NCBI RefSeq assembly: GCF_008274695.1
Contig: NZ_VTOU01000002.1
Span: forward strand, 806,001 to 870,000
Reading direction: 5' to 3'
DNA from: Sphingomonas montanisoli
GTDB taxonomy: Bacteria; Pseudomonadota; Alphaproteobacteria; Sphingomonadales; Sphingomonadaceae
Length of the DNA: 64,000 bases
In this document: one piece after another, positions 5,785-42,711 of the stretch
Position numbering within the stretch: the stretch's first letter is position 1
How the letters are laid out: the number at the start of each line of letters is the position of its first letter
Program-made: the position numbers and the translations under genes
Notes under the pieces: model-generated
What the model was told of the DNA's origin: nothing
The model's input: the letters and a program-made list of their open reading frames with translations, nothing else
Databases searched by the model: none

Positions 5785-7105
5785 AGCGACCGCCGCCGCG
5801 ATATCCGAGGATGAACCGAAGGGCGGCCTGATCGGCTGGTTCTCGATCGGCATCCTGATGGTGATGACGATCCTGTCCTACCTCGATCGCGGGATCATCG
5901 CGCTGATGGTCGATCCCATCAAGGCGGACCTGCACCTGACCGACGTGCAGTTCAGCCTGATCCAGGGTTTTGCCTTCGCTTTGTTCTACGCGCTGTCGAG
6001 CGTGCCCATGGGGTGGCTGGCCGATCGGTTCTCCAGGCGCTGGGTGGTCTATTTCGGCGTCACCGGCTGGTCGATCGCGACGATGCTGTGCGGGATGGCG
6101 CAGAGTTACTGGCAATTGTTCGCGGCGCGCTTTGCGGTGGGGATGGGGGAGGCGACGCTTTCGCCGTCATCCTATGCGATCGTGGGCGATCTGTTTCCCA
6201 AAAGGCGGCTGACCTTCGCGATCGGCGTGCTGGCGGGCGGCATCGCGATCGGCGGGGGGCTGTCGCTCGCGATCGGTGGCTTCGTGATGAAATGGGCCGA
6301 GGGGATGGGCGGCCTGTGGGGCTTCAAGCCGTGGCAGGTGACGTTCCTGGTCGTCGGCGCGCCGGGCATTTTGATCGCCCCCCTGATCTTCCTGATCCCG
6401 CGCCCGAAGCGCGCTTTGCCGACGGCGCAGGAGGCGGCGGCGCTCGCGGCGGCACCTGGCTATGGCGCGTGGCTGCGCGCCAACGCCTTCTACATCACCA
6501 CGATCTCGATCGGCGTCGGGCTGCACGCGATCCTGGCCTATGCGGTCGCGGGCTGGGCGCCGGCCTATCTGGGGCGGCACTTCGGCTATGATGCGGCGAA
6601 GATCGGTTCGACTCTGGGGCTGGTGCAGGGCGTCGCCGGCTTCGCAGGGTTCGTGGGTGGAGGCTGGCTGGTCGACTGGTTGCACAATACCGGCATGCGC
6701 GATGCTCATTATCGCTATTTCGTGGTCAATTGCATCGCGCTGACCGTAGTGGGCGTGATCGCGTTCACGGTGATCGAGTCAGCGCCGGTCGTGCTGCTGA
6801 TGATCGGCATGATCCACATCATGCTGCCCTTCACCAGCCCCGCGATCGCGCACATCCAGGTGTCGACCCCGCAGCGTTTCCGCGCACGGACGATCGCGAT
6901 CTTCATGGTGGTGCTGAACCTGATCGGGATGATCACGGGCCCGTCGATCGTCGCGATCTTCACCGAGAAGGTCTATGGTGGGGCCGAGCATGTCGGGCTG
7001 GGTATCGCGACGACCTATGCGATCTTCGGGCCGGCTTCGGCGATCGTGTTGCTGATCGGCCTCAGGGCCGGGCGGAAGGCGATCGCGGCGAACGGGGCAG
7101 GGTGA
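5777..7105 (+). CDS. MFS transporter, spinster-like
   Basis: A 442-residue inner-membrane protein with about twelve hydrophobic segments. The MFS signature between TM2 and TM3 reads GWLADRFSRRWV, and TM1 carries the family-typical SYLDRGIIALM. A second-half segment GGWLVDWLH is the matching loop. It is the last gene of the SDR-cupin-MFS operon (8-bp overlap upstream). Its 3' end overlaps the convergent glycosyltransferase gene by 44 bp. The substrate is unknown; relatives often carry organic acids or aromatic compounds. Confidence 0.88.
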   Translation: MAEATAAAISEDEPKGGLIGWFSIGILMVMTILSYLDRGIIALMVDPIKADLHLTDVQFSLIQGFAFALFYALSSVPMGWLADRFSRRWVVYFGVTGWSIATMLCGMAQSYWQLFAARFAVGMGEATLSPSSYAIVGDLFPKRRLTFAIGVLAGGIAIGGGLSLAIGGFVMKWAEGMGGLWGFKPWQVTFLVVGAPGILIAPLIFLIPRPKRALPTAQEAAALAAAPGYGAWLRANAFYITTISIGVGLHAILAYAVAGWAPAYLGRHFGYDAAKIGSTLGLVQGVAGFAGFVGGGWLVDWLHNTGMRDAHYRYFVVNCIALTVVGVIAFTVIESAPVVLLMIGMIHIMLPFTSPAIAHIQVSTPQRFRARTIAIFMVVLNLIGMITGPSIVAIFTEKVYGGAEHVGLGIATTYAIFGPASAIVLLIGLRAGRKAIAANGAG

Positions 7106-8189
7106 GCAGGCCGAGCACCAGCAGCGCGGTCGCCACCGCATAGACGTTCGGCGCGTAGGGCCAGAAGCCGCTTTCGATATCGACGAAGCGCGCGCCGTGC
7201 AGCGGGATCGCGGCGGCTATGAAGGCTGGGAGGAGCGCGGCCGTCGCGCGCCAGCCGCCGGTGCTCAGGATGTAGAGGGTGAGCGCGACGATCGCGGGGA
7301 ACAGGTCATAGTCCTGCAGGCGTGGGTTCAGGATTGCGGCGAGGAAGAACAGCAGCAGGGCAAAGGCGGGGTCGGCGAGGCGCCCCTGCCTCCACGCCGA
7401 TCCGATCGCGATGGCGGCGGCGGTAAGGACGATCAGGCCATGCGCGATCAGCGCCCCGGCCGACCCCAATTGCCCGGCGAGGCGGCCATAAGACCCAATC
7501 CCCAGGTCGCCCTGCGCCAGCGTCTGGGTCGTCAGGTTGCGGATGAAGGTCGCCGTCTCGTCGGGCCGAACGACGGCGTAAAGCGCGATCAGTGCGACGA
7601 CCGCGCCGATCGTCGCCGCCGCCGCGATCATATGGGGGCGGAGCGGCTGACGGCGGCCCATCGCGACACCGAGGGGCAGGATCGCATAGGCGATCATATA
7701 AGGCTTCACGATCGCCGTGACCGCAACCGCCGCGAGGAAGGTCCAGCGGTCGCGCGGCGCATCGAAGCCGCGCGCGGCAAGGCCCAGGATCGCCAGTTGC
7801 ACGAAGGGCGTGATGTTGCCCGTGGTGATCGCCGCGACACCCAGACCGCCGATGGCGAGGCCCAGGAATGTCGCCAGCGCCGCGCCCGGCCGCGTGTGGA
7901 TCGTGGCGCCATAGAGCAGGGTCAGCAGGGTATAGACCGTCAGCAGCTTCAGATCGAACTGCGCGCCAAGCGCCTCGAAAAAGTGCCGCATGATCGGATG
8001 GTAGGTAAAATACATCGGCCCGTGCGGTGACCGGATCAGCGGCCCGTTCTCGGCCGCGCTGCGATAGACCGCGAGGTCGAGCATCGGGGCGTGGCGATGC
8101 TCGATCAGCGCATCGGCGAACTGCTCGGCCGCGAGCAGGATCAGCACCGCGAGGAGCAGCCAGTGGAGGGCGCGCTCTTTGGCTGTCAT
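7062..8189 (-). CDS. GT-C fold membrane glycosyltransferase (GT87/DUF2029-like), candidate arabinofuranosyltransferase
   Basis: A 375-residue protein with about nine or ten membrane segments and an early periplasmic loop containing APMLDLAVYR. This layout is seen in polyprenyl-phosphate-sugar-dependent GT-C enzymes. The ATG overlaps the stop of the DprE2-like gene (8186-8189), making it the last gene of the five-gene operon. The context suggests that it uses the polyprenyl-phosphoryl arabinose made by the other four gene products, transferring the sugar on the periplasmic side. That role is inferred; the sequence alone supports only a GT87-like membrane glycosyltransferase. Confidence 0.7.
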   Translation of the reverse strand: MTAKERALHWLLLAVLILLAAEQFADALIEHRHAPMLDLAVYRSAAENGPLIRSPHGPMYFTYHPIMRHFFEALGAQFDLKLLTVYTLLTLLYGATIHTRPGAALATFLGLAIGGLGVAAITTGNITPFVQLAILGLAARGFDAPRDRWTFLAAVAVTAIVKPYMIAYAILPLGVAMGRRQPLRPHMIAAAATIGAVVALIALYAVVRPDETATFIRNLTTQTLAQGDLGIGSYGRLAGQLGSAGALIAHGLIVLTAAAIAIGSAWRQGRLADPAFALLLFFLAAILNPRLQDYDLFPAIVALTLYILSTGGWRATAALLPAFIAAAIPLHGARFVDIESGFWPYAPNVYAVATALLVLGLLTLPRSPRSPSARP

Positions 8190-8929
8190 ATGTTGAGCTT
8201 GTGGAAGATCGGGCGCGGGAGCAGGCGCACGACCGCCATGATCACCGCCCAGAGTGCGGGCGCATAGACCACCGGGCTGCCGCGATCGATCGCGGCGACG
8301 ATCCGCTTGGCGACATCGGCGGGGGAGGCCATGCGCTGGCCCTTCGTCTGTAACGCGGCGGTCATCGCGGTCGCAGTCGGGCCGGGCTTGGCCAGGACGA
8401 CGCGGACGTTCGTGTTCGCCAGCCGGTGCTGCATCCCCTGCGCGTAGCGATCGACCAGCCCCTTGGCAGCGCCATAGACATAGTTCGCCTTGCGCCCCCG
8501 ATCGCCCGCGACCGACCCGATGATCGCGATCGTGCCGCGATCGACGGGGACCATGTGGCGCGCAAAAGCTTCGGCGAACAGAGCGGGCGAAACGCCGTTG
8601 ACCAGCATCGTGTCCGCCGCGAGCGCGCCGTCATTCTGGCACGCCTGCTGATCGGGCAGCGTGCCGTGTGCGATCAGGGCGATGTCGACCGGCCGTTCGG
8701 CACAGAGCGCGCCGACGATCATGTCGACGGCCTGCGGATCGAGGAAGTCGCTGGCCACCAGCGTGTCGATCGCCGACACGGGGCTGCGCACTTTGAGGTC
8801 GTCAGCGACGGCATCGAGGCGGGCCGTGTCGCGGCCCACGAGGGTCAGGTCATGGCCGCGCCCGGCCCACAATCGCGCGCAATGTTCGGCGATGCCCGAT
8901 GTCGCGCCGATGATCGCGATCCGGGTCAT
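8186..8929 (-). CDS. Decaprenylphospho-beta-D-erythro-pentofuranosid-2-ulose 2-reductase-like SDR (DprE2-like)
   Basis: A 247-residue SDR. It starts MTRIAIIGATSGIAEHCARLW with the TGxxxGI-type cofactor loop and keeps the catalytic pair as YGAAKGLVDRYAQG, with an upstream Ser in IIGSVAGDRG. It lies directly after a DprE1-like oxidase with a 4-bp overlap. In mycobacteria DprE2 reduces the 2-keto intermediate made by DprE1 with NADH, giving decaprenylphosphoryl-D-arabinose. The family assignment rests on the fold and, above all, on this neighbourhood. Confidence 0.82.
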   Translation of the reverse strand: MTRIAIIGATSGIAEHCARLWAGRGHDLTLVGRDTARLDAVADDLKVRSPVSAIDTLVASDFLDPQAVDMIVGALCAERPVDIALIAHGTLPDQQACQNDGALAADTMLVNGVSPALFAEAFARHMVPVDRGTIAIIGSVAGDRGRKANYVYGAAKGLVDRYAQGMQHRLANTNVRVVLAKPGPTATAMTAALQTKGQRMASPADVAKRIVAAIDRGSPVVYAPALWAVIMAVVRLLPRPIFHKLNI

Positions 8930-10215
8930 GACAGGCCCAGCCGCTTCGACTGGTGCGAGGCGAAGCGACCGATCGCGTGGTGGCGCGCGCGGACCTCCTG
9001 AAATGCCTGCCAGTTGGGGTAGCTCGCCTTGAACATCGCCTCGCTCATCCGCGCATCCTTCGCCAGATAGATTCGCCCGCCCAGATCGAGGACCGCCCGA
9101 TCGAGCAGGTCGAGCAATGCGAACACCGCCGGCGCCGCCTTGAAATCGAGCGCGAGCGTATAACCTTCGGTCGGGAAGGACAGCAGGTTTCGGTTCGCGC
9201 GCCCGAACTTCTTGAGGACGGCGAGAAACGCGCCCTGGCCCGACATGGCGATCGTTTCGAGGATGCGGCGCAGCCCCTCCGCGCTGGGCAGGACGAACTG
9301 GTACTGGACGAAGCCCTGCCGGCCGTAGAGACGGTTCCACTCGGCGAGGCCGTCGAGCGGGTGGAAATGCGGCTCGTAGGGGATCGTGCGCGTGCGGACG
9401 GTCGAGGGGCCGCGCGCGTAGAACAAGGCGTTGAACGCCTTGCCGGTCGCGCGGTTGAGCAGGCCCGAGGGCATGTCGAACGGGACGGCGCGGGGCGGTT
9501 TCGTGCGCGGCGCCAGCGGGCCTTCGTCGGCATGTTCGCCGAGCATGAGGAGCGATCGGCCAAGGCTTTTGCCGCGCGCGAGGCAATCGATCCAGGCAGC
9601 GGAATAGGTGGCGCTGCCGTGGGTTTCGAAGGCGGCGAGGATGGCGTCCAGATCGCGCGCCTTGACCGTGGTTTCGCGGATCAGGCTCGATCGGATCTTC
9701 CGCATCCGGATCGTGGCGGACAGGATCATGCCGGTCAGCCCCATGCCCCCGCAGGTCGCGTGGAACAGATCGGGCTGCGCGTCGGGGCCGATGCGGACGA
9801 CCTCACCATTGCCCAGCAGCAGATCGATCGCGACGACATGATCGCCGAACGTGCCGTCGACATGGTGGTTCTTGCCATGCACGTCGCTGGCGATCGCGCC
9901 GCCGACGGTGACGAAGCGTGTGCCAGGGGTGACGGGCAGGAACCAGCCGCGCGGGACGAGCAGGGTCAGGATTTCGTCGAGCGAGACGCCCGCGTCGCAG
10001 CTGAGCAGCCCGGTTTCGGTATCGAAGGCGTGGAAGCGATCGAGCCCGCACATCGCGACGACATCGTCCGCCAGCGCGCTATCCCCATAGGCCCGGCCGA
10101 GACCGCGCGCGATTGTCTGCGAGGCGGTGACCGCGCGCGCACAGGCCGTGGCATCGGTGGGGAACGCGACTTGCGCGTCGACACGCGGATAGCGCCCCCA
10201 GCCGCTCAGTTCCAT
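8926..10215 (-). CDS. FAD-dependent decaprenylphosphoryl-D-ribose 2-oxidase-like protein (DprE1-like)
   Basis: A 429-residue FAD-binding PCMH oxidase. PVTPGTRFVTVGGAIASDVHGKNHH (residues 95-118, with H113) is nearly the DprE1 FAD-site sequence. The C-terminal half keeps SFPTEGYTLALDF and IYLAKDAR; the Lys equivalent to mycobacterial K418 is K386. The residue equivalent to C387, the benzothiazinone target, is Ala355. It would oxidise the 2'-OH of a polyprenylphosphoryl ribose. The ATG at 10215 shares one base with the stop of the GtrA gene (TGATG). The long N-terminal extension of the open frame is not coding. Confidence 0.9.
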   Translation of the reverse strand: MELSGWGRYPRVDAQVAFPTDATACARAVTASQTIARGLGRAYGDSALADDVVAMCGLDRFHAFDTETGLLSCDAGVSLDEILTLLVPRGWFLPVTPGTRFVTVGGAIASDVHGKNHHVDGTFGDHVVAIDLLLGNGEVVRIGPDAQPDLFHATCGGMGLTGMILSATIRMRKIRSSLIRETTVKARDLDAILAAFETHGSATYSAAWIDCLARGKSLGRSLLMLGEHADEGPLAPRTKPPRAVPFDMPSGLLNRATGKAFNALFYARGPSTVRTRTIPYEPHFHPLDGLAEWNRLYGRQGFVQYQFVLPSAEGLRRILETIAMSGQGAFLAVLKKFGRANRNLLSFPTEGYTLALDFKAAPAVFALLDLLDRAVLDLGGRIYLAKDARMSEAMFKASYPNWQAFQEVRARHHAIGRFASHQSKRLGLS

Positions 10216-10628
10216 CAGGCGGCCGCCCGCGTGACGAACACGAAGCGCTTGTCGAGTTGATACTTGACGTGATTCCCCACAGCGAGGCCGATCGCGCCGC
10301 CGACATAGCGCATCACATCTGTGCCGAAAACGATCTGGAACGAATGTTCGATCACCCAGAAGATCGCGGTCGTGAACAGCCCGAGACCCGAATAGAGCAG
10401 GAACAGCCCGCCGTCGTGGCGCAGATTGTTCGCGGTGAAGGCGAAGATCCAGCGCTTCTCCAGCACATATTTGGGCGGCAGCGCGGCGCCGATGCCGATG
10501 ATCATCGACAATTCGATCGCGAACGGCCCGCTGTAGAGTGCGATCACGATCATCTGGACGATCAGGTTGATCGCCGAGGATGCTGCGGCAATGGCCGTGT
10601 AGAGGATGGCGATACGGGTCGCGCTCAT
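10215..10628 (-). CDS. GtrA-family membrane protein
   Basis: A 137-residue protein with four hydrophobic segments. The conserved positively charged GtrA loops are KYVLEKRWIF and KYQLDKRFVF. GtrA-like proteins accompany polyprenyl-phosphate-sugar systems and are proposed flippases or scaffolds; the mycobacterial homologue Rv3789 sits beside dprE1/dprE2. The ATG overlaps the UbiA stop by 4 bp. Its place between the prenyltransferase and the epimerase genes repeats the mycobacterial association. Confidence 0.88.
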   Translation of the reverse strand: MSATRIAILYTAIAAASSAINLIVQMIVIALYSGPFAIELSMIIGIGAALPPKYVLEKRWIFAFTANNLRHDGGLFLLYSGLGLFTTAIFWVIEHSFQIVFGTDVMRYVGGAIGLAVGNHVKYQLDKRFVFVTRAAA

Positions 10629-12067
10629 CCCAATCCCTTGGCCAGCGCGAAGACACCGAGAAAACCGACGCCGATCAGGATGCTGGCCTTGTCCTTGATC
10701 GCGAACACGATCGGATCGTCATGCATCTGGCCCCGGTGCGTGATCAGCCAGGCACGCGAAATCCAGTAGAGCAGGATCGGGCAGGCAAGCCAGATGAAGC
10801 GGGGCGATGCGTAAAGCTCCGCCGTCTGCGCGTCGTGAATGTAGAGCGCGAGGACCAGGACGGAGAGATAGCCCGCGCCCACGCCCATCGCCGACAGCAT
10901 CTCCAGATCCTGCGGCCCGTAGGATCGCCCGCGCAGCGAGGTTTCACGCCCGCTGGCCCGCGCGACGAGCAGTTCGCTGACCCGCTTGATGAGCGCGAGG
11001 CTGAGGAAGATGAAAAGCGCGAAGGTGAGCAGCCAGAAGGACAAGGGCACGTTGGTGGCGGCTGCACCCGCGACGATGCGGATCGAATAGAGGCCGGCGA
11101 GCACCAGCACGTCGACGATCGCGACCTGCTTCAATCGCAGCGAATAAGCGACGGTGACGACGAAATAGATCGCCAGCACACCCACGAAGGCCGGCGGCAG
11201 CGCGAGCGCGGCGATCAGCCCCGCGATCAGCAGCAGAGCAGGCCACAAGGCCCACCCGGCGAGCAGGCTGAGGTCGCCCGCCGCGAAGGGGCGGTGCCGT
11301 TTCAGCCGGTGATGGCGATCGTCGGCGACGTCGGCGAGGTCGTTCAGGATATAGGCGCTCGACGCGGTCAGCCCGAAGACGAGGAAGGCGATCAGCGCCG
11401 CGATCATCCCGTCGACATCGCGGAAATGGTGCGCGGCGAGGATCGGCACGAAGATCAGCAGATTCTTGACCCACTGGTGTGGGCGCAGCGCACGGAACAA
11501 GGCGGCGGGGGCGGGCTTGCGGCCATCGGCGAAGACGCAATCGAGCGTCGCGACGGCGCGGACGCGATCGGCGAAAGCGGCCGAGCTGTCTACCAGATAG
11601 GCCTTGTCGGCGACGGCCCAGACAGCCAGATCGGCGCCATCGTTGCCGACATAGTCGAAGCCTTTTTCGCCGTAGAGCGCGACCAGCGCATCCCGCTTCG
11701 CCTCCGCCTTCAGGTTCACGCCGTCGCCGGTGGCCAGCACCGTATCGAACAGGTCGAGATGATCGGCGACGGCCTGTGCGAGGCGGCGGTGGCTGGCGGT
11801 GGCCAGCACGATCGGACGGCCCTTCGCGCGTTCGGCGCGGAGCCATTCGATCACCTCTTCGTGATAGGGCAGGGCCGCCGGATCGAAGGGTGTCGCCTCC
11901 GCCAGCCGTTCCTTCAGCGCATGCTTGCCGGCCATCGTCCAGCCGGCGAGCCGGACAATACGCAGCGGATTGTCGGACAGATATTGGCTCGCGGTTTCGT
12001 GGAGCAGATCGGCGCGGATCAGGGTGCCATCCATGTCGACGACCAGCGGATGCTCGGACGACGGCAT
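10625..12067 (-). CDS. HAD phosphatase-UbiA prenyltransferase fusion, phosphoribosyl-polyprenyl-phosphate synthase-like
   Basis: A 480-residue two-domain protein. Residues 8-180 are a HAD hydrolase (VVDMDGTL with D11 and D13, and VGNDGADLAVW as the acidic motif). Residues 190-480 are a UbiA-type membrane domain with LRPHQWVKNLL (194-204) and the Asp-rich NDLADVADDRHH (242-253), as in decaprenyl-phosphate phosphoribosyltransferases. It probably transfers phosphoribose from PRPP to a polyprenyl phosphate, and the HAD domain could remove the 5-phosphate. The ATG at 12067 is preferred to a TTG at 12091. It is the first gene of the operon. Confidence 0.87.
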   Translation of the reverse strand: MPSSEHPLVVDMDGTLIRADLLHETASQYLSDNPLRIVRLAGWTMAGKHALKERLAEATPFDPAALPYHEEVIEWLRAERAKGRPIVLATASHRRLAQAVADHLDLFDTVLATGDGVNLKAEAKRDALVALYGEKGFDYVGNDGADLAVWAVADKAYLVDSSAAFADRVRAVATLDCVFADGRKPAPAALFRALRPHQWVKNLLIFVPILAAHHFRDVDGMIAALIAFLVFGLTASSAYILNDLADVADDRHHRLKRHRPFAAGDLSLLAGWALWPALLLIAGLIAALALPPAFVGVLAIYFVVTVAYSLRLKQVAIVDVLVLAGLYSIRIVAGAAATNVPLSFWLLTFALFIFLSLALIKRVSELLVARASGRETSLRGRSYGPQDLEMLSAMGVGAGYLSVLVLALYIHDAQTAELYASPRFIWLACPILLYWISRAWLITHRGQMHDDPIVFAIKDKASILIGVGFLGVFALAKGLG

Positions 12068-12143
12068 GATCCTGACGCTCTCCCCCCTCAATCGTCGGCG
12101 ACGGGCACGGTTTAGACGGCAAGGGCGGAAATGGCGATAGCGC

Positions 12144-12174
12144 TTGACCCGGCCCCTGGGGCCGCCCCGATAAG
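12144..12174 (+). promoter_or_regulatory. MerR-type promoter/operator with 19-bp spacer, probably giving a leaderless mRNA
   Basis: TTGACC (12144-12149) and GATAAG (12169-12174) are 19 bp apart, the overlong spacing characteristic of promoters controlled by MerR proteins. A perfect dyad GGCCCC-T-GGGGCC (12151-12163) fills the spacer. The predicted start site is at about 12181, the A of the downstream ATG, and that ATG has no Shine-Dalgarno sequence. Confidence 0.6.
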
Positions 12175-12180
12175 CGCGCT

Positions 12181-13017
12181 ATGCACCGAAACCTCTCCGC
12201 ATCGCAGGCTGCCGCCGCTCTGGGTGTCTCCGTGAAGGCGCTGCGCCTGTACGAACGCGCCGGGCTGATCGCGCCGGGGCGGAGCGCCGCGGGGTGGCGG
12301 ATCTATGCGCCGGACGAAATGGTGCGGGCGCGTGAAATCGCCGCGCTACGGGGGCTGGGCGTCGCCCTGCGCGAGATCGGGCCGATGCTCGATGCCGATC
12401 CGGGCGCGGGTCTGGCGCGGCATGAGGCGCGGTTGCGGAGCGAGGCGGCGCGGATCGCGGAGGCGATCGGGCGGCTGCGGGCGATGCGGCCTGCGGACGA
12501 GGAAGAGGCTACGATCGCGTTCGATCTGCCCTGGCCGTGGGGCGGCGAGCGGTTCGAATTGCGGGGTCTGCCACCGATCCTCTGGCTCACGGGTCCGCTG
12601 GGCAGCGGCAAGACGCGGCTGGCGATGCGGATCGCGGAAAGCCTGCCCAGCGGGCGTTTCGTGGGCCTCGAACGCGATCGGCCGATCGAGGCGCTGATCG
12701 CGGAGGGCGAGGGGCCGCTGGTGATCGACATGGTCGAGGAGGGGCTGGATGCGGACGAGCAGGTCGCACTGGCCGCCCGATTGCGCGCGCGGCCGGTTTG
12801 GGCGCGGCCGCTGGTGCTGATGACGCGATCGAGCGCGATGCTCGATCTGGGGATGGTGGGCGCGGGGGAGGCGATCATCCTCTGCCCCGCCAATCACAGC
12901 CCGCCGGTCTATGTCGACCCGGTGCCCGGCGCGCCGGGTTACGAGGCGCTGGCGACATGCCTTGCCGCGCCCGAGCTGCGCGCGCGGACGGCGGGGGTGA
13001 TCGCGATCAGAGGTTGA
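12181..13017 (+). CDS. MerR-type HTH regulator fused to a P-loop ATPase domain
   Basis: A 278-residue protein. Residues 3-72 form a MerR DNA-binding domain (ASQAAAALGVSVKALRLYERAGLI, then GWRIY), followed by a helical segment to about residue 105. The rest is a nucleotide-binding domain with WLTGPLGSGKTRLA (Walker A, GPLGSGKT 138-145) and PLVIDM as a likely Walker B strand. The usual MerR ligand-binding Cys cluster is absent. It may couple nucleotide state to transcription, probably of its own gene through the dyad upstream. It overlaps the convergent VOC gene by 11 bp. Confidence 0.82.
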   Translation: MHRNLSASQAAAALGVSVKALRLYERAGLIAPGRSAAGWRIYAPDEMVRAREIAALRGLGVALREIGPMLDADPGAGLARHEARLRSEAARIAEAIGRLRAMRPADEEEATIAFDLPWPWGGERFELRGLPPILWLTGPLGSGKTRLAMRIAESLPSGRFVGLERDRPIEALIAEGEGPLVIDMVEEGLDADEQVALAARLRARPVWARPLVLMTRSSAMLDLGMVGAGEAIILCPANHSPPVYVDPVPGAPGYEALATCLAAPELRARTAGVIAIRG

Positions 13018-29922: not shown

Positions 29923-30087
29923 ATGGCGGAAGATCGGGTCGGGGAGGCGTTGCGTATATCGGCAGCGGCGATCGGCCTTGCCCTCCCGCCAGAGACGCTC
30001 GAGGGCGTGCGCGCCAACGCCGTGCTGCTCGAAGCGCATGCCGCGAAGCTGGCCGATTTCCCCCTGCCGGACGATCCGCACCCATGA
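29923..30087 (+). CDS. AtzG/HpxX-like small subunit (DUF4089)
   Basis: A 54-residue protein starting MAEDRVGEALRI and made largely of two helices (LPPETLEGVRANAVLLEAHAAKLADF). AtzG-type peptides form a complex with AtzE amidases. The Klebsiella hpxX-hpxY pair of the purine cluster has the same arrangement. GGGGAA lies about 6 nt before the ATG. The stop overlaps the amidase ATG (30084-30087), so a stoichiometric complex is likely. Confidence 0.82.
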   Translation: MAEDRVGEALRISAAAIGLALPPETLEGVRANAVLLEAHAAKLADFPLPDDPHP

Positions 30088-31412
30088 TGTCCGCCGCCGC
30101 CATCGCCGCCGAGGTGCGATCGGGCCAGCGCAGCGCGCGCGCCTTCGCCGAGGCCGCCATCGCCGCGATCCGCGCGAAGGACGGCGCGATCGGGGCGGTG
30201 ACGCGGTTACTCGACGAACGCGCGCTGGCCGAAGCTGATGCGGTCGACGCGATCGTAGCGGCGGGGCGCGATCCGGGGCCGCTGGCGGGCGTGCCTTATG
30301 GCGTGAAGGATCTGTTTGATGTCGCGGGCCTGCCCACCACCGCGGGTGCGGGGATGCGCGCCGATGCGACGCCTGCGCGTGCGGATGCCGAGGCGGTGGT
30401 GCGGATGAAAGCCGCAGGCGCGGTGCTGATCGCGACGCTCAACATGGACGAATATGCCTATGGCTTCGTCACGGTGAACGCGGCCTATGGTACGACACGC
30501 AATCCGCATGATGGGGCGCGGCTGTGCGGGGGATCGTCGGGCGGTTCGGCGGCGGCGGTCGCTGCGGGGATGCTGCCGCTGTCGCTCGGCTCCGATACCA
30601 ACGGATCGATCCGCATCCCGGCGGCGCTGACGGGCCTGTACGGGTTGAAGCCGACCCATGGCGCGCTGCCGATGGCGGGGGTGTTTCCGTTCGTGGAGAG
30701 CTTCGACGATATCGGGCCGTTTGCAAGGTCGGTCGAGGATTTGCGGCTGGCGTGGACTGCCCTTCTTAATCCTCCCCCTGGCGGGGGAGGATTAAGGGTG
30801 GGGCGACTTGACGGCTGGTTTCGCGCCGATCCCGATCCCGAATTGCTCGACGGCCTCGATAGCCTCGCCGATGCGCTCGGCGGCGGGCCGCTGGTCGAAC
30901 TGCCCGAGGTCGATCGTGCGCGATCGGCTGCGTTCGTGATGACGGCGGCGGAGGGCGGGGCACTGCATCTGGCGACCTTGCGCGCCCGCGCGATGGACTA
31001 TGACCCCGCGACCCGCGACCGGCTGCTCGCCGGCGCGCTACTGCCCGCGGCACATTATGTCCGCGCGCAGCGTTTCCGGAGCTGGTTCGCGGCGCGCGCG
31101 GCCGAACTTTTTGAACGGTTCGACGTGCTGCTCGCCCCCGCCGCACCCTGCGTCGCGCCCTTGATCGACGATCCGACAATGATGGTCGGTGGCGAGAAGG
31201 TACCGGCGCGCGCCAATATCGGGTTACTCACGCAGCCGCTCAGCTTCATCGGGCTTCCCGTTCTCACCATGCCGCTGCTTCGGCCCGGCAAATTGCCGCT
31301 GGGCGTCCAGCTGGTCGGCAAGCCCGGCAGCGAAGCCACCCTGTTCGCCGCCGCCGCCCGACTGGAGGCCGCAGGGCTGACGGGCTTTTCGGAGCCGCGC
31401 GATGTGCGATAG
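30084..31412 (+). CDS. AtzE/HpxY-like amidase, candidate oxalurate-processing enzyme, with an in-frame hairpin insertion
   Basis: A 442-residue amidase-signature enzyme. The Ser-cisSer-Lys triad lies in PYGVKDLFDVAG (Lys), GGSSGGSAAAV (cis-Ser) and GSDTNGSIRIPAALTG (nucleophile Ser), with the conserved GLKPTHGALP following. AtzE hydrolyses 1-carboxybiuret; oxalurate, the product expected from the PucG-like enzyme in this cluster, is structurally similar, so hydrolysis of oxalurate is a reasonable inference. Residues 228-238 (LNPPPGGGGL region) are encoded by a perfect 30-bp hairpin of a genomic repeat family, placed away from the triad. Confidence 0.85.
   Translation: MMSAAAIAAEVRSGQRSARAFAEAAIAAIRAKDGAIGAVTRLLDERALAEADAVDAIVAAGRDPGPLAGVPYGVKDLFDVAGLPTTAGAGMRADATPARADAEAVVRMKAAGAVLIATLNMDEYAYGFVTVNAAYGTTRNPHDGARLCGGSSGGSAAAVAAGMLPLSLGSDTNGSIRIPAALTGLYGLKPTHGALPMAGVFPFVESFDDIGPFARSVEDLRLAWTALLNPPPGGGGLRVGRLDGWFRADPDPELLDGLDSLADALGGGPLVELPEVDRARSAAFVMTAAEGGALHLATLRARAMDYDPATRDRLLAGALLPAAHYVRAQRFRSWFAARAAELFERFDVLLAPAAPCVAPLIDDPTMMVGGEKVPARANIGLLTQPLSFIGLPVLTMPLLRPGKLPLGVQLVGKPGSEATLFAAAARLEAAGLTGFSEPRDVR
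30766..30795. repeat. Perfect hairpin of family A inside the amidase gene
   Basis: TTAATCCTCCCCC and GGGGGAGGATTAA form 13-bp perfect arms around a TGGC loop. The hairpin is read through in frame as part of LNPPPGGGGLR. It matches the terminal arms of the intergenic repeats at 13500-13624 and 19724-19850. Confidence 0.9.
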
Positions 31413-31478
31413 GGTGATGGCGATCGGTAACGGCCGGCGCGCGGGAGGAGAAAGACACGCCAAGGGGGTGGCAGACGC

Positions 31479-32801
31479 ATGAGCGCGATCGAACGTTATT
31501 TCGGCCTGGCGGAGCGGGGGACCAATACCCGGACCGAGATCGTCGCGGGCACGACCACCTTCCTGACGATGGCCTATATCATCCTGGTGAACCCGGCGAT
31601 CCTGGGGCAGGCTGGGATGCCGGTCGCTGCGGTCGCCGCCGCGACCTGCCTCGCCGCCGCCTTCGCCAGCATATTGATGGGTTTTGCGGCCAACGTGCCA
31701 CTGGCGCTCGCGCCCGGCATGGGGCTGAATGCCTATTTCAGCTTCACCGTCGTTCAGCAGATGGGCGTGCCGTGGCCGGTCGCGCTCGGCTGCGTATTCG
31801 TGTCGGGCGTGGTGTTCCTGCTGCTGACTCTCGGCGGTATCCGGCAGATGATCGTCGCCGCGATCCCGCCGCATCTGTTCGCGGCGGTGGCGGGCGGCAT
31901 CGGCCTGTTCATCGGCTTCATCGGGCTGAAAAATGCCGGGATTGTCGTGTCCAACCCGGCGACCTCGGTCGCGCTGGGCGATCTTCACGCGGCGGGGCCG
32001 CTGCTCGCGATTGCGGGGCTCGTGATCATCTCGGTGCTCAGCATGTGGAACGTGCGCGGGGCGATGCTGATCGGGATCGTGGTGACGACCCTGCTCGGCT
32101 GGGCTTTCGGTGCGGTTCAGTTCAAGCCCGAACCCTATGATCTGGGCGCGATGACCGAGACCGCGTTCAAGCTCGATCTCGCGGGCGTATTCGGCGCGTC
32201 GGGCCACCACGGCCTCGGCCTGCTCGAAATCCTGTTCGTCTTCCTGTTCGTCGATCTGTTCGACAATATCGGCACGCTGGTGGCGGTGACCAAGCGCGCC
32301 GGCCTGATCGAGCCCGACGGCAAGATCCCGCGCCTGAACCGCATCCTCTTCACCGATTCGATCGCGACGATCTTCGGGTCGATGGCGGGCACCAGCACCG
32401 TCACCTCCTATGTCGAAAGCGCGGCGGGCGTGCAGGCCGGCGGACGCACCGGCCTGACCGCCGTGGTGACCGGCGTGCTGTTCCTGCTGGCGATGTTCGT
32501 GGCGCCTTATGCGCAACTGATCCCACTCGCCGCGACCGCGCCCGCTTTGATCCTGGTCGGCGGGCTGATGATGGCACCGCTCGTCGAAGTGCCGTGGGAC
32601 GATGCGGAGATGGCGATCCCCGCTTTCCTGACGCTGGCACTCATCCCCCTGACCTTCTCGATCGCCAATGGCCTTGCCTTCGGCATCACCGCGCATGCGG
32701 CGCTCAAGCTGTTCAAGGGCAAGGCGACCAAGCGCGACTGGCTGCTGTTCGTTCTCGCCGGTTTGTTCGTCGTGCGCTTCGCGTGGATGGCGGGGGGCTG
32801 A
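31479..32801 (+). CDS. AzgA-type NCS2 purine permease (adenine/guanine/hypoxanthine)
   Basis: A 440-residue inner-membrane transporter with about 12-14 hydrophobic segments. It has the family-typical N-terminus ERYFGLAERGTNTRTEIVAGTTTFLTMAYI and the substrate motif ALAPGMGLNAYF. The later motif is LFDNIGTLVAVTKRAG, and the second pseudo-repeat is GTSTVTSYVESAAGV. Members import purine bases with protons, which fits the surrounding degradation genes. The stop shares one base with the next start (TGATG). Confidence 0.92.
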   Translation: MSAIERYFGLAERGTNTRTEIVAGTTTFLTMAYIILVNPAILGQAGMPVAAVAAATCLAAAFASILMGFAANVPLALAPGMGLNAYFSFTVVQQMGVPWPVALGCVFVSGVVFLLLTLGGIRQMIVAAIPPHLFAAVAGGIGLFIGFIGLKNAGIVVSNPATSVALGDLHAAGPLLAIAGLVIISVLSMWNVRGAMLIGIVVTTLLGWAFGAVQFKPEPYDLGAMTETAFKLDLAGVFGASGHHGLGLLEILFVFLFVDLFDNIGTLVAVTKRAGLIEPDGKIPRLNRILFTDSIATIFGSMAGTSTVTSYVESAAGVQAGGRTGLTAVVTGVLFLLAMFVAPYAQLIPLAATAPALILVGGLMMAPLVEVPWDDAEMAIPAFLTLALIPLTFSIANGLAFGITAHAALKLFKGKATKRDWLLFVLAGLFVVRFAWMAGG

Positions 32802-34375
32802 TGCTCCACACGCCGAAATCGCTGCGCGGGATGGTGACCGCGCCGCATCACCTCGCAAGCCAGGCGGGGCTTTCGGTGTTGCAGGATGGCGGATCGGCGA
32901 TCGAGGCCGCGGTCGCGACCGCGGCAGCGCTGGCGGTGGTCTATCCGCACATGAACTCGATCGGCGGCGACAGCTTCTGGCTGGTCGCGGAGCCGGACGG
33001 GAGCGTCCACGCGGTGAGCGCGGTCGGCGGCGCGGCGCAGGCGGCCAACCTTGATCTCTATGCCGGGATGAGCGCGGTGCCGTGGCGCGGGCCGCTGGCG
33101 GCGAACACGGTCGCGGGGACGATTTCGGGGTGGGCGGCGATGCTGGCGCGCGTGGCCGATCCGCTGCCGCTCGGCAGGATTCTGCGTGATGCGATCCACC
33201 ATGCCGATGCGGGCGTGGTGGTGACGAAAGGCGGGGCGGAAATCGCCAAGACCAAGGATGCCGAACTGCGCGATGTGTTCGGTTATTCGGACATATTCCG
33301 GGGCGGGGGGAAACCGCTGGCGGAGGGCGGGATCCTGCGCCAGCCGGCGCTGGCGGAAACGCTGCGCCGGCTGGCGTCGCAGGGTCTCGCCGACTTCTAC
33401 ACCGGTGCGCTGGCGGCCGACATCGCCGCCGATCTGGCGGCCGCAGGAAGCCCGGTGACGGCGGCCGACCTTGCCGCCCACCGCACGACCACGCCCGATC
33501 CGCTGAGCGTCGCGATTTCGGGCGCGCGCCTCTTCAACATGACCCCGCCGACGCAGGGAATCGCCTCGCTCCTGATCCTCGCTTTGTTCGATCGGCTCGA
33601 CGCGGGCGTGATAGACGGTTTCGATCATATCCACGGATTGATAGAGGCGACCAAACAAGCCTTCCTGTTCCGCGATGCCGAGGTTGGCGACCCCGCGTAC
33701 ATGACGGTCGACTGCCAGACGCTGCTCGACGATGCCGCCGCGCTCGATGCGAGGGCGGCGCGGATCGATCGGGCGAAGGCGATGCCGTGGCCGCATGTGC
33801 CGGCGCTGGGCGATACCGTGTGGTTCGGTGCGATCGACGACGAGGGGCGAGCGGTCAGCGCGATCCAGTCGACCTATTTCGAGTTCGGATCGGGTGTGAC
33901 CCTGCCGCGCACCGGCATCGTCTGGCAGAATCGTGGCGCGAGCTTCCGCCTCGCGCCCGATGGCTGGAATGCGCTCCGCCCGGGGCGCAAGCCGTTCCAC
34001 ACGCTCAATCCCGCCATCGCCTTGTTCGATGACGGGCGGCGCATGGCCTATGGCACGATGGGCGGCGAAGGGCAGCCGCAGACGCAGGCGGCGGTCTTTT
34101 CGCGCTACAATCTGGGCATGCCGCTGCAGGCCGCGATCACCGCGCCGCGATGGTTGCTCGGCAAGACCTGGGGCGAGGAGAGTGTGACCCTCAAGCTGGA
34201 GGACCGCTTCGATCCCGCGCTTGTGCGGCAGTTGGCCGAGGCGGGGCATGATGTCGAACTGCTGAGTGGCTTCACTTCGACGATGGGCCATGCCGGCGCG
34301 CTGGTCCGCCATTCCGACGGCGTGATCGAGGGCGCGACCGACCCGCGCAGCGACGGCGCGGTGGCGGCATGGTGA
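32801..34375 (+). CDS. Gamma-glutamyltransferase-fold amidohydrolase, candidate oxamate amidohydrolase (HpxW-like)
   Basis: A 524-residue Ntn-hydrolase of the GGT family without a signal peptide, hence cytosolic, unlike secreted glutathione-degrading GGT. The autoprocessing nucleophile is T339 in ALGDTVWFGAID. The large and small subunit parts are both intact, including YGTMGGEGQPQTQA. Klebsiella HpxW, an oxamate amidohydrolase of the same fold, lies with hpxXY in purine clusters, exactly the company this gene keeps. The role is inferred from context; a general GGT function is the alternative. Confidence 0.8.
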   Translation: MLHTPKSLRGMVTAPHHLASQAGLSVLQDGGSAIEAAVATAAALAVVYPHMNSIGGDSFWLVAEPDGSVHAVSAVGGAAQAANLDLYAGMSAVPWRGPLAANTVAGTISGWAAMLARVADPLPLGRILRDAIHHADAGVVVTKGGAEIAKTKDAELRDVFGYSDIFRGGGKPLAEGGILRQPALAETLRRLASQGLADFYTGALAADIAADLAAAGSPVTAADLAAHRTTTPDPLSVAISGARLFNMTPPTQGIASLLILALFDRLDAGVIDGFDHIHGLIEATKQAFLFRDAEVGDPAYMTVDCQTLLDDAAALDARAARIDRAKAMPWPHVPALGDTVWFGAIDDEGRAVSAIQSTYFEFGSGVTLPRTGIVWQNRGASFRLAPDGWNALRPGRKPFHTLNPAIALFDDGRRMAYGTMGGEGQPQTQAAVFSRYNLGMPLQAAITAPRWLLGKTWGEESVTLKLEDRFDPALVRQLAEAGHDVELLSGFTSTMGHAGALVRHSDGVIEGATDPRSDGAVAAW

Positions 34376-35685
34376 GCGGTGGCGCTAAACCTAGCGGACA
34401 ACGCGCCGTCGCGCGGTGCGACGAACTGGGCGTCGCGCCGTATAGCGACAGCGCGGACGGGCTGTTTCGCGCCTATCTGACGCCGGCCCATGCCGCGTCG
34501 CTCGAACGGCTCGGCGGCTGGATGGAGGAAGCGGGGATGGCCGTGCGGCTCGATCCCGCCGCAAACCTGATCGGGCGTTACGAAGGTTCGGACCCGGATG
34601 CGCCCGCTTTACTGATCGGATCGCATATCGACAGCGTGCGCGATGCGGGCCGCTATGACGGGCCGCTGGGGATCATGCTGGGGATCGAGGCGGTCGCGGC
34701 GCTCGGCGGGCGGCAGATGCCCTTTCCGATCGAGGTGATCGCGTTCGGCGATGAGGAAGGCTCGCGCTTTCCGGCGTCGATGCTGTGCAGTCGGGCGATA
34801 GCGGGGACGCTGGAGGCCGGGGCGCTTGAGGTCGCGGATCGTGATGGGGTGGGATTGGTCGATGCCATTTCCACCTTCCCCGTTCGTGTCGAGCGAAGTC
34901 GAGACACGTTCTCAAGCGATGCACCGAGCCAACGTGTCTCGACTTCGCTCGACACGAGCAGACTGTTTTTGAGTGCGCGCTACAAAACCGCTCTCGCCTT
35001 CCTCGAACCGCATATCGAGCAGGGGCCGGTCCTCGAAGCCGAAGGGCTGGCGCTCGGCGTCGTCTCCGGCATTGCCGCGCAGCTGCGTTATCAGGTCCGC
35101 ATCACCGGCAAGGCGGGCCATGCCGGCACCAATGCGATGCACCTGCGCCGCGACGCGCTGACCGGGGCGGCGGACGCGGTGCTCGTGGTCGAGCGGATCG
35201 CGCATGAGGTCGGTGGCGATCTGGTGGCGACGGTCGGGCGGATGATCGTGGGTCCCGGCGCGGTCAATGTCGTGCCGGGCGAGGTCGATTTTTCGATCGA
35301 CGTGCGATCGGGCATCGAAACGGTGCGCAACGCCGCCGCCGAGCGGATCGTTCATGAGATCGGCAAGGTCGCGCAGGCACGCGGCCTCGAACTCACCGTC
35401 GAACAGGTGCAGGATCTGGGCGCATCGCCCTGCGACGCGAAGCTCACCGCGATGCTCGAAGACGCGCTGGTCGAGAGCGGGCATCGGGTGCGCACACTCG
35501 TTTCGGGCGCGGGGCACGATACGATGGTGATGGCGAGCCTGTGCCCCACCGCGATGCTGTTCATCCGCTGCGAAGGCGGGGTCAGCCACAATCCGGCCGA
35601 GGCGGTGACGGCGGACGATGCCGAGGCGGCGTTGCAGGTGATGCGCCGGTTCATCGACAAATTGGGAGCGAACTACGTTGGTTGA
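34369..35685 (+). CDS. allC: Allantoate amidohydrolase-type M20 metalloenzyme with an in-frame palindromic insertion
   Basis: A 438-residue hydantoinase/carbamoylase-family amidohydrolase. The metal ligands are intact: GSHIDSV (His), RYDGPLGI (Asp), AFGDEEGSRF (Glu pair), EPHIEQGP (His) and VSHNPAEA (His). In the purine cluster its likely reaction is allantoate to ureidoglycine, ammonia and CO2. Residues 172-197 (RVERSRDT...RVSTSLDT) are encoded by a 74-bp palindrome shared with addB and fall just before the EPHIEQGP motif. The start overlaps the upstream stop by 7 bp. Ureidoglycolate hydrolase or a carbamoylase are the alternatives. Confidence 0.83.
   Translation: MVSGGAKPSGQRAVARCDELGVAPYSDSADGLFRAYLTPAHAASLERLGGWMEEAGMAVRLDPAANLIGRYEGSDPDAPALLIGSHIDSVRDAGRYDGPLGIMLGIEAVAALGGRQMPFPIEVIAFGDEEGSRFPASMLCSRAIAGTLEAGALEVADRDGVGLVDAISTFPVRVERSRDTFSSDAPSQRVSTSLDTSRLFLSARYKTALAFLEPHIEQGPVLEAEGLALGVVSGIAAQLRYQVRITGKAGHAGTNAMHLRRDALTGAADAVLVVERIAHEVGGDLVATVGRMIVGPGAVNVVPGEVDFSIDVRSGIETVRNAAAERIVHEIGKVAQARGLELTVEQVQDLGASPCDAKLTAMLEDALVESGHRVRTLVSGAGHDTMVMASLCPTAMLFIRCEGGVSHNPAEAVTADDAEAALQVMRRFIDKLGANYVG
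34884..34957. repeat. Palindromic element, family B, inside the allantoate amidohydrolase gene
   Basis: Perfect 27-bp arms at 34884-34910 and 34931-34957 (TCGTGTCGAGCGAAGTCGAG...) enclose a 20-nt loop. The arms are the same sequence as those inside addB at 51825-51901, whereas the loops differ. Confidence 0.93.
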
Positions 35686-36904
35686 TCTCTATAGCCAGAT
35701 CGATCCGCCGCAGCGGCTGCTGATGGGGCCGGGGCCGGTGAACGCGCATCCACGCGTGCTGCGCGCGATGTCGGCCGATCTGCTGGGGCAGTTCGATCCC
35801 GAATTCACGACCTATATGAACGAGGTCATGGCGCTCTACCGCGCCGTTTTCCAGACCGAGAACCGCTGGACCTTCCTGATCGACGGCACCGCGCGGGCGG
35901 GGATCGAGGCGGCGCTCGTCTCGCTGATCGAGCCGGGGGCGACCGTGCTGCTCGTCCGCTCCGGGCGCTTCGGGCTGCTGCTGTCGGAGATCGTCGAGCG
36001 GTGCGGCGGGAGCATCGTCACGGTCGATGCCGAATGGGGCGAGGTGGTGCCCATGGCGGCGATCGCCGAGGCGGTCGCCACGCACAAGCCGGCGGTGGTG
36101 GCGTGCGTCCACGGCGATACGTCGACGACGATGGCGCAGCCGCTCGATGGCTTGGGTGACATCTGCCGGGCGCATGGCGCGCTGTCCTATGTCGATGCGA
36201 CCGCGACGTTGGGCGGGATGGCGGTAGAGACCGACACGTGGGGCGCGGATATCGTGACCGGCGGGCTGCAGAAGTGCATGGGCGGCCCCTCGGGTTCGGC
36301 GCCGATCACGATTTCGGATCGCGCGGCCGAGTTCATCTTCGCGCGCCGCCATACCGAAAAGGGGATTGCCCGCGACGATCTGGCACAGGGCGGGCGGGCG
36401 CGGATCGGCTCCAACTATTTCGATCTCGCGATGGTGATGGATTATTGGGGCGAGAAGCGCCTCAACCACCATACCGAGGCGACGACGATGCTCTACGGCG
36501 CGCGCGAATGTGCGCGGATCGTGCTGGGCGAGGGGTTGGAGGCGCGCTTTGCCCGTCATGCGGCGGCGGGGCGGGCGATGACCGCGGGGCTGCGCGGCAT
36601 GGGGTTGACGGTCTATGGCGACGATACGCATCGCATGGCGAACGTGACCGGGGTGTATATTCCCGAGGGCGTCGATGGCGAGGCGGTGCGCCGCCGGATG
36701 CGCGAGGATTTCGAGATTGAGATCGGCACGGCGTTCGGACCGCTGCAGGGCCGGATCTGGCGGATCGGCGCGATGGGTTACAACGCCATGAAGCATAAGG
36801 TGCTGATCACATTGGGCGCGCTGGAGGCGGTGCTGCGCGCGGAGGGCTTTGCGGTGAAGTCCGGCGCGGGGGTGGATGCAGCGCTGGAGGCTTGGTCATG
36901 TTGA
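35678..36904 (+). CDS. pucG: (S)-ureidoglycine-glyoxylate aminotransferase-like class V aminotransferase
   Basis: A 408-residue PLP enzyme of the alanine-glyoxylate aminotransferase family. It opens LLMGPGPVNAHPRVLRAM. The PLP Lys lies in VTGGLQKCMGGPSG, and VDATATLGG supplies the Asp that contacts the cofactor ring. RIGAMGYNA carries the substrate Arg. PucG-type enzymes pass the amino group of ureidoglycine to glyoxylate, giving oxalurate and glycine, which fits its place after the allantoate enzyme. The TTG start (35678) overlaps the upstream gene by 8 bp and has GGGAG upstream. Confidence 0.85.
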   Translation: MVDLYSQIDPPQRLLMGPGPVNAHPRVLRAMSADLLGQFDPEFTTYMNEVMALYRAVFQTENRWTFLIDGTARAGIEAALVSLIEPGATVLLVRSGRFGLLLSEIVERCGGSIVTVDAEWGEVVPMAAIAEAVATHKPAVVACVHGDTSTTMAQPLDGLGDICRAHGALSYVDATATLGGMAVETDTWGADIVTGGLQKCMGGPSGSAPITISDRAAEFIFARRHTEKGIARDDLAQGGRARIGSNYFDLAMVMDYWGEKRLNHHTEATTMLYGARECARIVLGEGLEARFARHAAAGRAMTAGLRGMGLTVYGDDTHRMANVTGVYIPEGVDGEAVRRRMREDFEIEIGTAFGPLQGRIWRIGAMGYNAMKHKVLITLGALEAVLRAEGFAVKSGAGVDAALEAWSC

Positions 36905-37029
36905 TCCTCCCCTGGAAGGGGAGGGGGACCGCGCGAAGCGTGGTGGAGGGGTATTCTCCACGAGCGCATTGCTGCCGGCCAATACCCCTCCACCGCTTCG
37001 CGGTCCCCCTCCCCCTCCGGGGGAGGATC
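36903..37029. repeat. Long composite palindromic repeat, family A, between pucG and puuE
   Basis: GATCCTCCCCTGGAAGGGGA on the left and TCCCCCTCCGGGGGAGGATC on the right are inverted copies. The inner GGTGGAGGGGTATT mirrors AATACCCCTCCACC. It is near-identical in plan to 1776-1909. The left end supplies two bases of the pucG stop and the right end the Shine-Dalgarno of puuE. Confidence 0.92.
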
Positions 37030-37031
37030 TG

Positions 37032-37916: not shown

Positions 37917-37925
37917 TCCCCATTT

Positions 37926-38014: not shown

Positions 38015-38025
38015 GGAAGAGGCTT

Positions 38026-40243: not shown

Positions 40244-40265
40244 GTGGCTGTTTCTCCCCACAAAC

Positions 40266-40349: not shown

Positions 40350-40353
40350 AACT

Positions 40354-42659: not shown

Positions 42660-42711
42660 TCGACGGGCAATCCGTGCGCATAAGCCCCGCTTTCCGTCGC
42701 CTTCGGAGATC

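Follow-up and report, generated by a model that had tools for sequence, protein, structure and literature searches.

Five overlapping genes of Sphingomonas montanisoli probably make polyprenyl-phosphoryl-beta-D-arabinofuranose and spend it outside the inner membrane. They lie in a 64,000-nucleotide stretch of DNA (hereafter, the window). D-arabinofuranose is usually regarded as a mycobacterial sugar. The donor-making part of the operon belongs to a known kind, widespread outside mycobacteria, while the predicted terminal transferase is an orphan. From homology, gene order, gene overlaps, retained motifs, and low dN/dS, this reading predicts each reaction, the identity of the sugar, its flipping, and its acceptor. 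Specifically, following 5-phosphoribosyl transfer to the lipid, the fused HAD domain would take off the 5-phosphate, the DprE1-like enzyme would oxidize C2, and the DprE2-like enzyme would reduce the product to the arabino form. GtrA would aid in flipping the lipid, and in the periplasm the fifth protein would then add arabinofuranose to an acceptor on the cell surface. By analogy to published three-component systems, we consider an exported polysaccharide, or else another glycan of the envelope, the likeliest acceptor. Among the matches listed in PMC, judged by title and the start of the abstract, no paper addresses D-arabinofuranose in sphingomonads.

Operon layout and conservation

Five minus-strand open reading frames within 7062-12067 encode, successively, a HAD-UbiA fusion, GtrA, a DprE1-like protein, a DprE2-like protein, and a polytopic protein (Table 1). 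By their coordinates, successive genes overlap by 4, 1, 4, and 4 bp, confirming an earlier note on this DNA that had described five overlapping minus-strand genes. The A of the DprE1-like ATG start is the final base of the GtrA stop codon. The fifth gene also overlaps a convergent MFS gene by 44 bp. The sister species G001 harbors orthologues of all five genes, with dN/dS of 0.09-0.23; thus, the set is not a chance assembly. All five reading frames are intact in the window and in G001, and, judged from these comparisons, selection looks to be conserving all five genes between the two species.

Table 1. Predicted genes of the operon and its divergent neighbor (positions in the window)
Feature	Position	Strand	Basis
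HAD-UbiA fusion: predicted polyprenyl-phosphate 5-phosphoribosyltransferase with its own 5'-phosphatase	10625..12067	-	Pfam, NCBIfam, PDB, alignment
Small GtrA-family membrane protein, predicted to flip the lipid-linked pentose	10215..10628	-	NCBIfam, hydrophobic segments, Ensifer identity
DprE1-like FAD oxidase, predicted C2 oxidation of polyprenyl-phospho-ribose	8926..10215	-	NCBIfam, PDB, inspected positions
DprE2-like SDR reductase, predicted	8186..8929	-	NCBIfam, PDB, motif alignment
Orphan polytopic protein, predicted GT-C-type arabinofuranosyltransferase	7062..8189	-	Topology, position, dN/dS 0.23
Divergent MerR-type gene, possible regulator	12181..13017	+	Pfam MerR_1, 51 bits

At 1e-20, the MerR-type gene occurs only in G000 and G001 among 14 genus members, and these are the two members with the closest DprE1. 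A scan of 11900-12350 revealed no sigma-70 promoter, and tRNA and Rfam scans across the window returned nothing.

Predicted donor-making enzymes

The HAD and UbiA domains reside in a single protein (Pfam: HAD, 40 bits at residues 9-119; UbiA, 71 bits at 210-451). Among NCBIfam models, this protein scores 632 bits with PRK08238 and 162 bits with DPPR synthase, below the DPPR synthase cut-offs, versus 24 bits with the proteobacterial ubiquinone UbiA model. A ubiquinone-type enzyme was rejected on the latter two scores. The best PDB match is the DPPR synthase 8j8j (104 bits), and PDB matches are to DPPR synthase only. In a 10-row alignment of the window protein and nine sequences of our choosing, HAD residues D11 and D13 and UbiA residues N242, D243, D246, and D250 are invariant. 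The UbiA domain is thus the predicted DPPR-synthase-type phosphoribosyltransferase of the donor pathway, and the HAD domain, carrying a DxD motif in the same protein, is the candidate 5-phosphatase.

GtrA scores 148 bits with NCBIfam gtrA_1 (cut-off 50) and 31 bits with the Pfam GtrA/DPMS transmembrane family, and it has four hydrophobic segments. With it, the operon has a predicted flippase gene, as a three-component pentofuranose system does.

The DprE1-like protein scores 452 bits with NCBIfam DprE1, under the cut-off of 500, and 62 bits with Pfam FAD_binding_4. Against the PDB, it matches DprE1 at 301 bits and the top non-DprE1 chain at 44 bits, which led us to reject an unrelated FAD oxidase. 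Compared with Rhodococcus DprE1 at nine inspected positions, it agrees in eight and has Ala for Cys in the other.

The DprE2-like protein matches Pfam adh_short at 87 bits. Both of its NCBIfam scores are under cut-off: 246 bits for PRK07102 (267) and 138 bits for DprE2 (250). Its best PDB match is the DprE2 chain 21gq_C (81 bits). It aligns with Rhodococcus DprE2 over the C-terminal PRxIFxKL motif and over a stretch with S-Y-K, the SDR catalytic set. The window protein is the weakest of four non-actinobacterial reductases scored.

The earlier note had assigned a mycobacterial-type donor pathway, subject to profile searches. These support it: UbiA scores with DPPR synthases and not with ubiquinone-type enzymes, DprE1 is the best model and supplies the best solved structures for the oxidase, the reductase is nearest to DprE2 in the PDB, and GtrA is present. 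Counting against our reading are the sub-threshold scores of the window DprE1-like and DprE2-like proteins with their equivalog models (452/500 and 138/250), along with a fifth gene of no detectable family. The Ensifer noeCHOP and Pseudomonas indica kin are also under cut-off (DprE1, 403 and 403 bits; DprE2, 198 and 197 bits).

Relation to known systems

Citrobacter youngae ORF12-15 resembles the window in its N-terminal HAD fused to a UbiA phosphoribosyltransferase and in its combination of lipid-linked donor, flippase, and GT-C transferase, the last of these predicted here. The HAD-UbiA protein ORF15 makes polyprenyl-phospho-ribose (Kelly et al. 2024, PMC11127046). When the ORF15 HAD domain carries D18A, the 5-phosphate is mostly retained but some product is still made; thus, the HAD step is not absolute in Citrobacter. 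The UbiA mutants N247A, D248A, and D255A are barely active in cells (PMC11127046). The flippase is MATE in Citrobacter and GtrA in the window, the transferase is a GT136 protein with a CBM in the former and a 375-residue orphan in the latter, and the Citrobacter O2 epimerase is a single SDR. The Araf cases among three-component systems carry DprE1/E2 homologues, according to PMC11127046.

The noeCHOP systems of Azorhizobium and Ensifer alkalisoli act in the arabinosylation of Nod factors. An Ensifer/Sinorhizobium alkalisoli plasmid possesses, near nodABC, the same order of UbiA, GtrA, DprE1, DprE2, and "hypothetical protein." This noeCHOP locus is termed arabinosylating in an excerpt of PMC6689892. 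Identities to the window by BLAST are 48% (UbiA), 42% (GtrA), 46% (DprE1), and 32% (DprE2). The Ensifer UbiA is annotated without a HAD match, whereas the window UbiA is fused to HAD. The fifth genes are unrelated by BLAST, yet that of Ensifer is likewise polytopic, with 6 hydrophobic segments under a strict rule and 11 under a loose rule. Among the window genes inspected, none was recognized as a nodulation gene.

Pseudomonas paraeruginosa also has a D-Araf donor pathway outside actinobacteria (PSPA7_6245-6251, with TfpW); PMC12369383 reports that the bacterium has pathway genes of its own for D-Araf synthesis and attaches the sugar to type IVa pilin. There, the phosphatase is separate and of another family (PMC11127046), as opposed to the fused HAD of the window. 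Given these two published cases (PMC12369383 and PMC11127046), the Azorhizobium noeCHOP locus, which the earlier note had named as the nearest proteobacterial precedent, is not the only one. Finally, the mycobacterial DPA pathway (Rv3806c, Rv3789, DprE1, DprE2) comprises the same enzymatic steps by homology. Its phosphatase is a separate, non-HAD protein (PMC11127046). The window further differs in the DprE1 Cys-to-Ala change, seen relative to Rhodococcus, and in a fifth gene with no Pfam or PDB counterpart.

The terminal protein

The fifth protein has 375 residues and 7 hydrophobic segments by the strict rule or 11 by the loose rule. A 44-residue loop (30-73), holding D38, follows the first segment. 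Searches of NCBIfam and the PDB gave nothing, and no Pfam hit with an E value up to 5 exceeded its cut-off, so the GT-C label relies on topology and position. Topology and place in the operon fit the earlier GT-C proposal, and a family match to back it was not found. At 1e-8, the gene occurs only in G000 and G001 among 397 family genomes, at 1e-3 in its own genome alone among 398 phylum genomes, and at 1e-3 in no plasmid. Its dN/dS is 0.23.

The corresponding position in other cassettes is variable. Specifically, 16 of 83 related loci have a polytopic non-UbiA gene after DprE2, and by our rule 62 have no polytopic gene directly there. Twelve of the 16 were scanned, yielding Pfam GT87 in two and PMT_2 in one. 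At BLAST 1e-5, the 16 proteins together with those of the window and noeCHOP fall into 15 groups. Profile comparison of the fifth protein with 15 other polytopic groups from near related cassettes, and with its MFS neighbor, gave at best 11.5% probability over 27 columns. We tentatively entertain the possibility that the fifth protein founds a new family of GT-C arabinofuranosyltransferases, known to date only from two sister sphingomonad species, that places D-arabinofuranose onto an envelope acceptor not yet known to carry it, with the donor genes a travelling module that partners with unrelated transferases. If so, each host would gain a different arabinosylated surface.

Alternative readings

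The lipid-linked pentofuranose could be a sugar other than arabinose, either because the diverged reductase yields another product or because mainly ribofuranose is delivered. We judge this improbable. The SDR does score best with PRK07102 rather than DprE2 and falls below three kin with both models (246 and 138 bits versus 330-343 and 180-198), and Kelly et al. (PMC11127046) report comparable systems for Ribf and Xylf. However, ribose needs no oxidase-reductase pair, PRK07102 is likewise the top-scoring model for the Ensifer noeCHOP SDR, and the window SDR retains the S-Y-K stretch and the C-terminal motif. Marginally less probable still is that the fifth protein is a second flippase or other membrane protein and that the true transferase is encoded elsewhere. 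A candidate exists in the one GT87 protein over cut-off in the genome (C10:339518), and the missing family match and the 62 loci lacking a polytopic gene after DprE2 fit this notion. Against it are the 4-bp overlap of the fifth gene with DprE2, the D-containing loop, and the 16 loci with a polytopic gene at the same place, GT87 and PMT_2 members among them.

Pilin arabinosylation, as by TfpW and as the earlier note had suggested, is very unlikely. Its attraction is the P. paraeruginosa pathway, but according to PMC12369383 TfpW is encoded beside the pilin gene, whereas the fifth gene of the window adjoins donor genes. Moreover, a search of the S. montanisoli genome (15 contigs, 99.94% complete) found no PilT-family match over cut-off (best 173 bits, cut-off 319). 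The search covered type IVa pili; type IVa pilin is therefore disfavored, and we rejected it as the acceptor. The note's two other suggestions, a surface glycan and a hopanoid-type lipid, are candidate acceptors. Hardly credible is the idea that the operon is part of a functionless, decaying island. Orthologues of the adjacent MerR and MFS genes turned up in just 2 of 14 genus members at the thresholds used, so the region is patchy, but the intact frames and the dN/dS of 0.09-0.23 across all five genes led us to reject decay.

Distribution and origin

Donor genes of this kind are already known outside mycobacteria and are widespread there. Of 289 genomes sampled from the class, 33 hold a DprE1 relative, as do 55 of 398 sampled from the phylum. 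Among the 80 best named loci, 75 have a DprE2 relative close by. The earlier note's view of the cassette as an exception is thus not supported. With DprE1 relatives in approximately one tenth of alphaproteobacterial and one seventh of phylum genomes sampled, many Gram-negative surfaces may carry D-arabinofuranose unnoticed. The variable position after DprE2, in turn, offers a ready source of uncharacterized transferases.

In a quick DprE1 tree, built without bootstrap from hits taken in order of their similarity to the window, the window and L034 fall in an eight-row set (SH-aLRT 99) with four betaproteobacteria, one gammaproteobacterium, and one Conexibacter. The actinobacterium Conexibacter is the immediate sister of the window DprE1 (SH-aLRT 89). 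Two genomes of other alphaproteobacterial families (58 and 60% identity) are absent from this tree. Because the window DprE1 groups mostly with beta- and gammaproteobacteria and not with other sphingomonads, the tree suggests transfer: the cassette probably came from a donor that was not a sphingomonad, and the nearest named source is beta- or gammaproteobacteria. DprE1 has no phage match at 1e-20. Among 72,556 plasmid records, 64 hold a DprE1 relative, all below 60% identity; therefore, such genes do travel.

A probable donor operon of known type

Five minus-strand genes occupy 7062-12067 of the window, as the earlier note had claimed, and coordinates give overlaps of 4, 1, 4, and 4 bp between successive genes. 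The five genes look like a single operon. Their GC contents (0.60-0.69) lie near the 0.67 of the window, and a convergent MFS gene shares 44 bp with the end of the last gene. A sigma-70 consensus promoter scan of 11900-12350, which permitted only spacers of 16-18 nt, returned none.

Genes of the cassette, in order of transcription
Gene	Position	Strand	Type
HAD-UbiA fusion gene	10625-12067	-	ORF
GtrA gene	10215-10628	-	ORF
DprE1-like gene	8926-10215	-	ORF
DprE2-like gene	8186-8929	-	ORF
Last gene (polytopic protein)	7062-8189	-	ORF

The earlier assignment to a DPA-type pathway is well supported: the UbiA protein groups with DPPR synthases, and the oxidase best matches DprE1 in the PDB. Specifically, the first protein is a single polypeptide with HAD at its N-terminus and UbiA at its C-terminus (Pfam). 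Its top NCBIfam model is PRK08238 (632 bits, above the cut-off of 351), three DPPR synthase models rank next (129-162 bits, each under its own cut-off), and the proteobacterial ubiquinone UbiA model scores 24 bits. At 1e-3, its PDB matches are two DPPR synthase sequences and no others. The HAD DxD and UbiA N/D motifs are invariant in a 10-row alignment of this protein with nine hand-picked relatives.

The DprE1-like protein matches PDB DprE1 chains at 275-301 bits (next chain, 44 bits). For the DprE2-like protein, DprE2 is best at 81 bits and the runner-up has 57; in NCBIfam, PRK07102 (246 bits) outscores the DprE2 model (138 bits). Both proteins miss the curated NCBIfam cut-offs. On the same models, a Rhodococcus DprE1/DprE2 pair, which adjoins a gene annotated arabinofuranosyltransferase, scores 808 and 399 bits, the noeCHOP pair 403 and 198, and the Pseudomonas indica pair 403 and 197. 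Thus, in this small set, non-actinobacterial relatives generally fall under these cut-offs. The window's DprE1 outscores noeCHOP DprE1 on the DprE1 model, and its DprE2 is weaker than its scored relatives on the DprE2 model. Eight of nine inspected DprE1 positions, all with recognized roles, are identical to Rhodococcus; the exception is Cys to Ala. In actinobacterial DprE1, that Cys is the site attacked by benzothiazinones. Across 100 aligned rows the position holds 89 Ala (window included), 7 Thr, 1 Ser, 1 Gly, and 1 gap, with Cys in the Rhodococcus reference only.

Comparable systems have been published. Kelly et al. 2024 (PMC11127046) show a HAD-UbiA protein making polyprenyl-phospho-ribose, describe a flippase and a GT-C enzyme as users of that product, and state that their Araf cases have DprE1/E2 homologs. 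In other published work, the type IV pilin of P. paraeruginosa bears D-Araf (PMC12369383), a plasmid of an Ensifer alkalisoli strain carries nodEFnoeCHOP (PMC6689892), and a D-arabinose precursor is suggested as the product of Azorhizobium noeC, H, and O (PMC2443382). The cassette is thus a module of already known type, and the earlier choice of Azorhizobium noeCHOP as nearest proteobacterial precedent framed the matter too narrowly, given the systems of PMC11127046 and PMC12369383. At the locus from that Ensifer plasmid (L164:5422-10262), five genes, GtrA among them, stand in a row, one more than the gene names available for them (noeC, H, O, and P).

Distribution and origin

Nor is the proposal that the operon is exceptional supported: its donor genes are widespread. 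DprE1 relatives at 1e-40 occur in 18/397 family, 33/289 class, and 55/398 phylum genomes, all samples that include and count the window's own genome. In the genus, strong DprE1-model matches (at least 372 bits) occur in 4/14 genomes and weak ones (at most 66 bits) in 14/14. A scan of named genomes found at least 580 DprE1 relatives, of which the best 80 were retained. Within 4 kb of these 80, and with loci broken by contig ends scored as misses, DprE2 relatives accompany 75 (lowest 90 bits), UbiA relatives 66 (lowest 92 bits; 26 HAD-fused and 40 unfused, by a rough rule of >250 bits to the window's HAD-UbiA protein), and GtrA 35 (lowest 69 bits); fused UbiA, GtrA, and DprE2 occur together at 18. 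Seventeen family loci (16 of the 18 DprE1 matches plus G010, with the window's genome and the broken G170 omitted) include fused UbiA in 15, GtrA in 10, and DprE2 in 16.

A quick 98-row DprE1 tree, made without bootstrap from matches ranked by likeness to the window, places the window and its sister species within an 8-row set (SH-aLRT 99). The set's other members are four from Betaproteobacteria, one from Gammaproteobacteria, and, as the immediate sister of the pair, the actinobacterium Conexibacter (SH-aLRT 89). Outside the set fall 14 family loci (L057-L070) and two further genus members (L035, L036); the tree leaves out two genomes of other alphaproteobacterial families (DprE1 58 and 60% identity). 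Of the named genomes among the matches listed, a Burkholderiales bin (68% identity) and Rugamonas (66%) come nearest. Together, tree placement and closest relatives point to acquisition of the cassette by transfer.

The putative orphan transferase and its place

The donor pathway itself is of a known and widespread kind; the interest of the cassette lies in the putative orphan transferase and its acceptor. The last protein has no NCBIfam match, no PDB match, and no Pfam family above cut-off, and no similarity to the protein at the same place in the noeCHOP locus. A strict rule finds 7 hydrophobic segments in it and a looser rule 11, and its N-terminus is probably inside. A catalytic Asp is expected in the first loop of GT-C enzymes; here, a 44-residue loop with Asp at 38 follows the first segment. 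A small outside domain behind the first helix is usual in such enzymes, according to PMC11127046. With at most four candidates scored per genome, so that distant kin may escape, the protein was found among 397 family genomes only in the window's genome and the sister species (1e-8), and its two-row profile found only the window's genome among 398 phylum genomes (1e-3).

Between these two genomes, dN/dS is 0.091 for UbiA, 0.088 for GtrA, 0.137 for DprE1, 0.120 for DprE2, and 0.233 for the last gene; the flanking MFS and MerR-type genes give 0.095 and 0.206. Judged by such comparison, the function of the cassette appears to be kept between the two species.

The place after DprE2 was surveyed in 83 loci where DprE2 adjoins DprE1 on the same strand with space beyond (six more lack the space). 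A polytopic protein lies directly behind DprE2 in 21 of them, five being UbiA relatives. The other 16, with those of the window and noeCHOP, form 15 groups (BLAST, 1e-5). Pfam, run on 12 of the 16, gave GT87 in 2, PMT_2 in 1, and nothing above cut-off in 9. In loci with a transferase-like gene the donor part is stable and the user part variable, a pattern comparable to that of Gtr systems (PMC11127046). The remaining 62/83 loci have no such gene directly behind DprE2, so the window's layout is not general.

Proposed pathway and acceptor

We infer every reaction from homology. PRPP and polyprenyl phosphate would yield a phosphoribosyl lipid, which would then be dephosphorylated. The lipid-linked sugar would be epimerized at C2 by oxidation and then reduction; GtrA would help to flip it, and on the outside it would serve the last protein as donor. 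The window's genome encodes two Wzy_C proteins above cut-off, so Wzy-type exported polysaccharides are possible, and one may be the acceptor. PilT is absent above cut-off from this genome. In a Sedimenticola bin (L073:2099-10494), a PMT_2 GT-C protein, a GT4 transferase, and a carbamoyltransferase flank the donor genes; these neighbors may hint at acceptors of close kin.

Neighboring features

By eye, 12068-12180 contains TTGACC-19 bp-GATAAG, with the GC palindrome CGGCCCCTGGGGCCG inside the spacer, facing the divergent MerR-type gene (12181-13017, plus strand); alignment shows the element kept in the sister species. Read against the MerR promoter layout, it resembles a self-regulated promoter of the MerR kind more than one serving the cassette. 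The MerR-type product has a MerR-type N-terminus (Pfam) and, by eye, a P-loop-like stretch, GPLGSGKTRLA, further along. Its gene is seen in only 2/14 genus members at 1e-20, both of which carry the cassette. Elsewhere, 30084-45159 encodes amidase, amidohydrolase, adenosine deaminase, phosphoribosyltransferase, and purine nucleoside permease domains, and is likely a purine-breakdown cluster.
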